A DNA stretch of 32,741 nucleotides, from positions 1 to 32,741 of the forward strand of contig JAEIOE010000025.1 in the NCBI GenBank assembly GCA_016342455.1, written 5' to 3'. This document shows, piece after piece, positions 16,797-19,394 of the stretch; positions within the stretch are counted from its first letter, which is position 1, and each line of letters begins with the position of its first letter. Source of the DNA: Mycoplasmatota bacterium. Lineage in GTDB: Bacteria > Bacillota_I > Bacilli_A > Izemoplasmatales > Hujiaoplasmataceae. The notes under the pieces are model-generated. The model searched no databases and was not told the origin of the DNA. It saw only the letters and a list, made by a program, of their open reading frames with translations. A program made the translations under genes and the position numbers.

Positions 16797-16820
16797 AAAG
16801 GCTTGTATTAAGCCTTTTTT
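16797..16820 (+). terminator. Terminator of the rpsF operon
   Basis: Stem AAAGGCTT/AAGCCTTT with a 5-base loop and a T-run. Confidence 0.88.
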
Positions 16821-16890: not shown

Positions 16891-16918
16891 TTGAAAAACT
16901 GTGATTTTGTGATATAAT
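16891..16918 (+). promoter_or_regulatory. Promoter of gdpP-rplI-dnaB
   Basis: TTGAAA (16891-16896), a 16-base spacer and TATAAT (16913-16918) with an extended TG. Confidence 0.8.
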
Positions 16919-16949: not shown

Positions 16950-19394
16950 ATGAATAAACAACTTAGAACCCAAGTAATCATTGTATCTGTGGTATATATG
17001 GTATTGATTGCTTATGGGATTTTATTTATTAAGCCGAATTTAGGAAATCAGTACTTTGTATTTTATGTAGTCCTAATTTTGGTTATTCTGTTCGCGCTAG
17101 TAATTCAATATCTTGTATCAAAGAGTAAACGTTCTAGAATCACAGACTTAGAGAATAGAATAAAAGAATTGAATTCAATGAACAAATATAAAGTTAATAG
17201 TGAAGATATCGCTCTCAATTATTTACCTGTTGGGATTATTCTTTATGATGAAGTTTTCAGTATAAATTATGCGAATTCACAGGCGAAGGATTATTTTTCT
17301 AATGTTTTAGTGGGAAGAAGTCTAGAATTCATAAGTAAGGATCTTTCAGAAAATATCTCTAGAAGAATCGGAAAATTTATTTTAGATGTTTATGATAAAA
17401 AATTTGATATTATTCATTATCCAAAAAACCGCACAATTTACTTATTCGAAGTAACAGATCGCGAATTAATGAAAGAAAAATATCAAAACAATATTGATGC
17501 GATTGGTGTATTGAAATTAGATAATTTTTATGATGCTACTCAAGATTTAGATTTTCAAGATAAAGCAAATATTCAAGGGCTTCTATTAGGCGCTATTGAT
17601 AGTTGGTGTTCAAAACAAAACATCTATTTTAATAACTTGAGACCTGAGAAAACAATTATTTTCTTAAATAAACACCAACTAGATCAATTAATCAAAGAAA
17701 AGTTTCAAATTATGAATACAATTTCTGATATATCTCAAAACAATGATTTAAGAATTACATTATCAATTGGTGTTGCTTGTTTTGAAGGGAACGCAAAAGA
17801 ATTAGGTGAGGCTTCAGAAGAAGCTTTGAATTTAGCGGAAGAACGTGGTGGAGACCAAACGGTTGTAAACTTAAAAAATCAACCGCTTAAGTTCTATGGT
17901 GGAAAAACGAATACTGCAGAAAAACGCAGTAAAATCACTGCTAAAGTAAACTCAAAAGCGCTTGAAGATTTTATAGAAGGGGCTAAAAATGTATTTATTA
18001 TGCCTCATATAGCGACGGATTTAGATGCTTTAGGTTCAGCTATTGGTGTTTTGGAAATGGCTTTAGCAAAAAATAAAAAATCAAGAATAGTTCTAGATTT
18101 TAATAATATGGATCAAACTTGTCATAAAGTAATAGAAATGTTGAATCAAGAATATATTAAGTTATTAGAGTACATAATTGAACCAGATGACGCATTATCT
18201 GAATCATCAGATGATTCATTGTTGATAATTGTCGATCACCATTCAACTGTACAAACTATTGAACCGAGATTAATCGATAGAACAAAACATATAATTGTAA
18301 TTGATCATCACAGAAGAATTGATAATGTGTTATCAGACGTGTTAATAAACTATGTTGAACCGTATGCATCAAGCTCTGTCGAATTAGTAACTGAAATGAT
18401 AGATTTATACGAAGTGAAAGTAACAATAGACCCATTTGAAGCTACTATTATGCTTGCTGGTATGTTAATTGATACCAATAATTTCTCTTACAGAACTGGG
18501 GCGAGAACCTTTGAAGCAGCTGCTAGATTAAAACGTTTTGGAGCGGATCCATTTAAAGCTAGACTGATGTTAAGAGAATCTCTAGATGATATTAGAACAA
18601 AAACAAATCTTATAAATCAAGCAAGAATTGTATCTAATCATTTTGCCATTGCACAGTTGCCAGAATCAGACTTATCAGACCGTGTTCAATTGGCAAAAAC
18701 AGCAGATGAATTATTAGAAATTGATAACATAATCGGAGCATTTGCAATAGGAAATATTGGCAATGGAGAGATTGGATTATCAGCGAGATCTATTGATAAA
18801 TTTAATGTGTCTATTATTATGGAACGATTTGGCGGAGGTGGTCACCTTAACAATGCGGCTGCACAAGTTAGAAATACTTCAATTATTGAGGTCGCAGAAA
18901 AAATCGAAGCGATAATCAATGAGACCTATAGGGAGGAATTACAAATGAAACTTATATTGATAAAAGATGTTAGAGGAAAAGGAAAAAAAGGTGATATAAT
19001 TGATGTAGCAACGGGCTACGGAAATTATTTACTAACTTCTAAACATGGAGTTGCTGCGAATACAGCAAATATAAAGGCACTAGAATCAGAAAAAGAAAAA
19101 CTTTCTATTGAAGCAAATAAAGAATTAGAAAAAGCTAAAAAATTAAAAGCCCAAATAGAAGAAAGTCCAATTATTCTATCTGTTAAGACTGGTGAATCAG
19201 GGAAATTATTTGGTTCAATAAATACAAAACAAATAGCAGAAGAACTTAAAAAGTCCTATTCTCTAAATGTAGATAAACGAAAAATAGAATTAAGTGATAA
19301 TATTCATTCATTAGGTAATTATGAAGTGAAAATTAAACTTCACAAAGATGTAACAGCAACAATAAACTTACAAGTGTTAGAAGAAGAAAAATAA
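16950..19394 (+). CDS. gdpP-rplI: GdpP c-di-AMP phosphodiesterase fused to ribosomal protein L9
   Basis: 814 residues, one open frame. The GdpP part has two membrane segments (about 8-28 and 33-56), a PAS-like domain (about 85-170) and a degenerate GGDEF domain with GGDQ at 300-303. The DHH phosphodiesterase has H353, D357 and D359 in PHIATDLDALG, VDHH at 428-431 and IDHH at 451-454. The DHHA1 end has GGGGHLNNAA at 628. GdpP hydrolyses cyclic di-AMP at the membrane. Residues 666-814 are a complete 149-residue L9 starting MKLILIKDVRGKGKKG, a length normal for stand-alone L9. No stop separates them. At the joint is a strong SD and ATG (18931-18947), so free L9 can also be made. SD for the whole gene is GAGAGGCAA. 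In many Bacillota gdpP, rplI and dnaB are separate adjacent genes in this order. A sequencing error removing a stop is possible but would have to keep both frames intact. Confidence 0.93.
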   Translation: MNKQLRTQVIIVSVVYMVLIAYGILFIKPNLGNQYFVFYVVLILVILFALVIQYLVSKSKRSRITDLENRIKELNSMNKYKVNSEDIALNYLPVGIILYDEVFSINYANSQAKDYFSNVLVGRSLEFISKDLSENISRRIGKFILDVYDKKFDIIHYPKNRTIYLFEVTDRELMKEKYQNNIDAIGVLKLDNFYDATQDLDFQDKANIQGLLLGAIDSWCSKQNIYFNNLRPEKTIIFLNKHQLDQLIKEKFQIMNTISDISQNNDLRITLSIGVACFEGNAKELGEASEEALNLAEERGGDQTVVNLKNQPLKFYGGKTNTAEKRSKITAKVNSKALEDFIEGAKNVFIMPHIATDLDALGSAIGVLEMALAKNKKSRIVLDFNNMDQTCHKVIEMLNQEYIKLLEYIIEPDDALSESSDDSLLIIVDHHSTVQTIEPRLIDRTKHIIVIDHHRRIDNVLSDVLINYVEPYASSSVELVTEMIDLYEVKVTIDPFEATIMLAGMLIDTNNFSYRTGARTFEAAARLKRFGADPFKARLMLRESLDDIRTKTNLINQARIVSNHFAIAQLPESDLSDRVQLAKTADELLEIDNIIGAFAIGNIGNGEIGLSARSIDKFNVSIIMERFGGGGHLNNAAAQVRNTSIIEVAEKIEAIINETYREELQMKLILIKDVRGKGKKGDIIDVATGYGNYLLTSKHGVAANTANIKALESEKEKLSIEANKELEKAKKLKAQIEESPIILSVKTGESGKLFGSINTKQIAEELKKSYSLNVDKRKIELSDNIHSLGNYEVKIKLHKDVTATINLQVLEEEK
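18931..18947 (+). promoter_or_regulatory. rplI: Internal SD and start codon for free L9
   Basis: GGGAGG (18931-18936) lies eight bases before ATG 18945, which is in frame with the fusion (codon 666) and begins a canonical L9. This is as good as any SD in the window. It predicts a 149-residue L9 made by internal initiation, ending at 19394. Confidence 0.82.

Follow-up and report, generated by a model that had tools for sequence, protein, structure and literature searches.

The window analysed here (the whole 32,741-nucleotide stretch of DNA) contains a single reading frame that runs from a membrane c-di-AMP phosphodiesterase, GdpP, into ribosomal protein L9. The locus raises the question of which proteins are made from such a frame, and whether ribosomes that depend on it for L9 must carry the enzyme with them. 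A preliminary description had proposed that, if the fusion protein is made, the hydrolase would be fixed to the ribosome and ribosomes would be tethered to the membrane through L9, coupling second-messenger breakdown to translation.

The fused gene and its surroundings

The main features of the locus outside the L9 start signal are as follows.

16797..16817, + strand: intrinsic terminator-like hairpin, 3' of rpsR and 5' of the fused gene (9-pair stem, then a T run)
16891..16918, + strand: promoter-like TTGAAA-16-TATAAT with TG before the -10 (11/12 matches)
16950..19394, + strand: fused gdpP-rplI reading frame, 814 aa (ORF, domain and structure matches)
16953..17120, + strand: two N-terminal hydrophobic (membrane) helices of GdpP (sequence; AlphaFold2 helices 2–26 and 34–88)
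17202..17453, + strand: PAS_GdpP domain (Pfam, residues 85–168)
17511..17882, + strand: degenerate GGDEF_GdpP domain (Pfam, residues 188–311)
17988..18464, + strand: DHH domain (Pfam, residues 347–505)
18678..18917, + strand: DHHA1 domain with GGGGH motif (Pfam, residues 577–656)
18945..19394, + strand: ribosomal protein L9, complete, 149 aa (Pfam, NCBIfam and PDB comparison)

No stop codon separates the GdpP and L9 parts, and all six Pfam domains of the protein exceed the Pfam cut-offs. The GdpP part contains the N-terminal membrane helices and the PAS_GdpP, GGDEF_GdpP, DHH and DHHA1 domains in that order, and structures 9n0l and 5xsi match residues 89–654 and 325–659. Alignment with these structures places every expected motif (HxxxDxD, VD, IDHH, DT and GGGGH); the DHH motif residues are H353, D357 and D359 of HxxxDxD, D429 and D452-H453-H454, with D508 just past the domain. 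A diadenylate cyclase domain (DAC) is encoded in the same genome, consistent with c-di-AMP production, and we infer that the window GdpP hydrolyses c-di-AMP.

The L9 part begins at M666 and includes both the N domain (residues 666–711) and the C domain (727–810). It matches the L9 structure 1div over residues 666–812, starting from L9 residue 1, and scores 130.6 bits against TIGR00158 (cut-off 58.6). The GYxN motif reads GYGN in the window, and fused copies in general retain an average of 26.6 of 28 conserved L9 residues. No other L9 gene was found in the window's genome (a 108-contig assembly). Since the fused copy is its sole L9 gene, the window L9 is expected to assemble into the 50S subunit. 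The complete membrane GdpP and complete L9 reported in the preliminary description are thus both present in one open frame, with the small correction that the L9 Met codon is at 18945–18947.

An AlphaFold2 model (mean pLDDT 87, pTM 0.42) has the secondary structure expected for GdpP and L9, with about three residues joining the last DHHA1 helix (645–662) to the first L9 strand (666–670). The relative placement of the domains in this model is unreliable because the pTM is low.

According to the ORF translations, rpsF-ssb-rpsR lie before the fused gene, and dnaB and prfA after it. The hairpin downstream of rpsR is one of five terminator-like sites in the region, where 0.9 were expected. The promoter-like site that follows is a putative source of a separate gdpP-rplI(-dnaB) transcript; such sites are not enriched (15 found, 16 expected), and the call is based on position and score. 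An internal promoter-like site at 18793–18820 was no better than chance and was discarded.

Distribution of the fusion and selection on the linker

A scan of genome contigs with an alignment of diverse fusions gave matches, the window protein alone having matched nothing. In the window's order, L9 lies inside a long frame in all 83 L9-bearing genomes, counting four that are cut by contig ends. Every sampled genome of families f7 (9) and f18 (15) also has the fusion, as do at least 153 genomes of f12, f16, f22, f23 and f24, every one among the matches listed. The total is about 258 genomes among the matches listed, from the window's order and seven further families. These include the phytoplasmas (genus g139 in f12), in which the gene is fused in Ca. 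Phytoplasma mali (NC_011047) as elsewhere in the genus. No split gdpP/rplI pair was found within the fused families, again among the matches listed, and no stop lies between the domains in the window or in any of these relatives.

Several apparent exceptions were examined and set aside. Contig ends account for the frames that seemed short or split in G035, G047, G064, G068, G324 and G360. G048 has a second L9 (222 aa) on a 3.5 kb contig with no adjacent gdpP, probably a contaminant. The 397-aa frame of G208 (family f9) is a chance extension through GC-rich sequence, and its gdpP ends separately, ahead of L9; G261, of the same family, also shows a 397-aa frame. One phytoplasma genome (94% complete, 7% contamination) carries two equally scoring full fused copies, at G353:C1:328029 and G353:C1:454421.

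Outside these groups the genes are split: this holds for the remaining families sampled within the class and for every non-Mollicutes Bacillota genome that was scored. The split genes often overlap by 4 bases, and in many Bacillota loci (many of L134–L190) the overlap is of the ATGA type, which suggests a translational coupling that predates any fusion. At three loci (L082, L083 and L138) the overlap between the split gdpP and L9 is instead 23 bases long, with the two in different frames, and a GGAGG Shine-Dalgarno (SD) sequence lies at the junction.

Given that the window's genome is fragmented into 108 contigs, a sequencing or binning error might have joined two genes. Identical architecture is present in the single-contig genomes G021, G026, G032, G168, G227 and G354, and a local frame or assembly artefact is excluded because the same open frame recurs in the related genomes. 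We assign this explanation a negligible probability.

In a tree of GdpP sequences the fused genes fall on one side of a branch, requiring one change between fused and split states; a Candidatus Izimaplasma MAG, the one named relative to do so, groups inside the window's order, which probably puts that order close to Izemoplasmatales. Support for the branch between fused and split genes is low (17), and for this reason a single origin is put no higher than likely.

The linker offers a measure of whether the open frame matters. Across a tree of 131 fused genes, parsimony counts at least 413 amino-acid changes in the ten codons before L9 and no stop. Linker codons were aligned by counting back from the L9 start, and indels that separate families therefore inflate the number of changes somewhat. 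If stops were tolerated like amino-acid changes, about 40 would be expected in the ten codons and about 7 at the two spacer codons alone, and each linker position has accepted 8–15 different residues. The choice of fused genes for this comparison does not explain the missing stops because, among the matches listed, no split gene was found in the fused families. On this comparison of sequences, the fused frame is held open by selection. The fusion protein, whose existence the preliminary description had left conditional, is accordingly predicted to be made, very probably, since its frame is both conserved and selected.

These results bear on a neutral account, in which the stop was lost by accident, the fused L9 domain is a passive tail on GdpP, and only that enzyme and free L9 matter. 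GdpP without fused L9 does exist in related lineages where the genes are split, and an internal start (described below) can supply L9. The account has to accommodate the lack of any split among the roughly 258 genomes listed as matches and the zero stops where about 40 were expected. A third observation, from genomes with a duplicated L9, also counts against it and is given in the last section; with all three considered, we regard it as unlikely.

The internal L9 start signal

Two further features lie at the junction of the GdpP and L9 parts.

18930..18937, + strand: internal Shine-Dalgarno sequence AGGGAGGA (−10.8 kcal/mol), which in frame encodes linker YREEL
18945..18947, + strand: internal ATG, predicted start codon of free L9 (sequence and SD energy)

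This conserved SD and L9 start codon inside the fused frame is the point that the preliminary description missed. SD energy was computed as hybridisation with the anti-SD; the 16S 3' end that would carry the anti-SD was not found in this MAG, and the neighbouring genes rpsF, ssb and dnaB have strong SDs. The window's L9 site is the strongest among 36 in-frame start codons, and the start of gdpP itself scores −5.8. Before the L9 ATG, at the spacing expected of an SD, nearly every fused gene has GGAGG, GGAGA or something very similar. Over 129 single-copy fused genes the mean energy before the L9 start is −9.5 kcal/mol, as against −1.5 for 2085 other in-frame ATGs, only 11 of which reach the strength of their own gene's L9 site. 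L9 begins with ATG in 123 genes, GTG in 5 and TTG in 1, a count that is supportive but not independent because the start was placed by seeking these three codons.

The signal is stronger than the encoded peptide would require. Synonymous re-encodings of the same linker peptides, drawn from each gene's own codon usage, average −5.9, and 117 of the 129 genes have a real site stronger than this re-encoded one. The paired p-value of 9e-21 is inflated by relatedness, and the safer statement is that the family means beat their re-encodings in all eight families. All 24 genes of the window's family have GAG as the codon at −12, whereas elsewhere in these genes GAG accounts for only 168 of 984 Glu codons (83% are GAA). 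The SD also occupies two codon phases: phase 1 in f1, f3 and f7 (KEE, QEE, EEE), and phase 2 in most of f12, f16 and f22 and all of f18 and f2 (GGD, EGG, KGD). Its presence in two phases with unrelated peptides indicates that the nucleotide signal has been kept and the peptide has not.

The same comparison addresses the possibility that free L9 is cut from the fusion by proteolysis, which would likewise yield two products from a single frame. What is conserved is the SD at the nucleotide level, while the linker peptide differs completely by family (KEE, QEEKP, GGD, EEEN), and there is therefore no conserved cleavage site; proteolysis as the source of free L9 is highly improbable.

Phytoplasmas are the main departure from this pattern. 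The SD before L9 is at −4.5 or stronger in 12 of 16, and between −1.0 and −2.8 in the other four, including P. mali. Fused genes with almost no internal SD were seen at the phytoplasma loci L258, L263, L264 and L267, and one non-phytoplasma genome (G272) also has a weak site (−3.1). Phytoplasma lineages without a clear SD may start L9 independently of an SD, or may rely on the fusion.

Were the fusion the only product, all ribosomal L9 would be covalently attached to membrane GdpP. The continuous frame in the roughly 258 listed matches, the stop-free linker and the phytoplasmas lacking a clear SD are all compatible with this arrangement. It would require one GdpP per ribosome, and it leaves unexplained why an internal SD and an ATG, GTG or TTG codon are conserved, in differing codon phases, in all the other families, and why the two genomes with a separate free L9 have no internal SD in the fused copy. 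We consider it very unlikely that only the fusion is made. Because a strong SD and start codon precede L9, abundant free L9 is predicted, and universal tethering of ribosomes to the membrane is correspondingly unlikely; with such a signal in nearly all non-phytoplasma relatives, that part of the preliminary description is unsupported. The breakdown of c-di-AMP may still be coupled to ribosomes.

The explanation that we favour, and hold to be probable, is that the gene has two translation starts and yields two proteins from one frame. Initiation at 16950 would produce a membrane-anchored GdpP–L9, a c-di-AMP phosphodiesterase with a C-terminal L9 domain. Initiation at the ATG served by the internal SD (18930–18947) would produce normal free L9 destined for the 50S subunit, and probably more of it than of the fusion. 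We infer that both proteins are made and that the free form supplies ribosomes. The fusion probably arose by loss of the stop that separated gdpP from its neighbour rplI, with the L9 start signal kept, and the fused product would later have become needed, as suggested by the selection that holds its frame open.

Possible roles of the fused L9 domain and relation to known systems

Two genomes of one genus (G156 and G278, family f22) separate the two products. Each has a second, free L9 located 67–70 bases after the fusion, with an SD of −8.0. In the fused copies the internal SD is only −0.4, the GYxN motif is gone and 17 of 28 conserved L9 residues remain, compared with 24 of 28 in the free copies. 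The tandem free L9 and degenerate fused L9 were noted at positions 3118 of L071 and 3112 of L192, in gene orientation. Between the two genomes the fused L9-like domain is under purifying selection, with dN/dS of 0.115 (NG86) or 0.071 (YN00), as are GdpP (0.153) and free L9 (0.133), values that come from this single genome pair. It looks as if the two roles parted once L9 had been duplicated. A fused domain that is degenerate yet constrained beside a free L9 suggests that the ribosome uses the free product and that the fused domain has a role of its own, contrary to the earlier picture of the fused domain as ribosomal L9. It is also the third observation against the neutral account, since the fused L9 is still constrained where the free L9 makes it dispensable for ribosomes.

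The fused L9 domain probably serves GdpP, in its stability, dimer arrangement or RNA/ribosome sensing; a structural role and sensing of ribosome or RNA state are the leading options. We also put forward, tentatively and as a less probable extension, that L9 is a permanent regulatory domain of GdpP that reports ribosome or RNA state and so couples c-di-AMP breakdown to translation, with the nested start still supplying the ribosome and the roles split by duplication in one lineage.

If correct, the two-start interpretation would mean that, throughout a branch of bacteria comprising wall-less forms and their relatives, one gene encodes both a core ribosomal protein and a second-messenger enzyme, and that a start nested in the same frame apportions output to ribosome and membrane. 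It would provide a concrete link between c-di-AMP and translation that could bear on the adjacency of gdpP and rplI across Bacillota, and gene callers that annotate one long protein would be overlooking free L9.

The fusion architecture is not new, having been named by NCBIfam as ‘putative bifunctional signaling protein/50S ribosomal protein L9’ (NF011110/PRK14538), with the same domain order as the window protein. The match covers model positions 54–836 of 838 and window residues 35–813 (E 1.5e-191); its 638.7 bits fall below the curated cut-off of 707, so that the window protein shares the architecture without reaching the score for membership. The model is silent on an internal start, whereas one is predicted in the window gene, and no paper on the GdpP–L9 fusion or NF011110 was found in the literature searched. 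The GdpP (YybT) of Bacillota has the same domains and motif residues as the window protein, and its gene lies directly 5' of rplI; the two genes are reported to belong to one operon in B. thuringiensis (PMC4568413) and to be co-transcribed in S. pyogenes (PMC3711813). In Bacillota they are separate, often with a 4-base overlap, while the window frame is continuous.

The closest parallels to the proposed expression of the gene are found elsewhere. Two-polypeptide phage endolysins (PMC9430671; CTP1L, PMC4777826) are reported to have an in-frame internal start that gives a shorter C-terminal protein, and Cas11b is reported as a C-terminal product made by in-frame internal initiation (PMC11899642). 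The endolysin and Cas11b genes share with the window gene an in-frame internal start and a common stop codon for both products, internal translation in the window being predicted. The window gene differs from these systems in that its short product would be a core ribosomal protein and its long product a membrane signalling enzyme.
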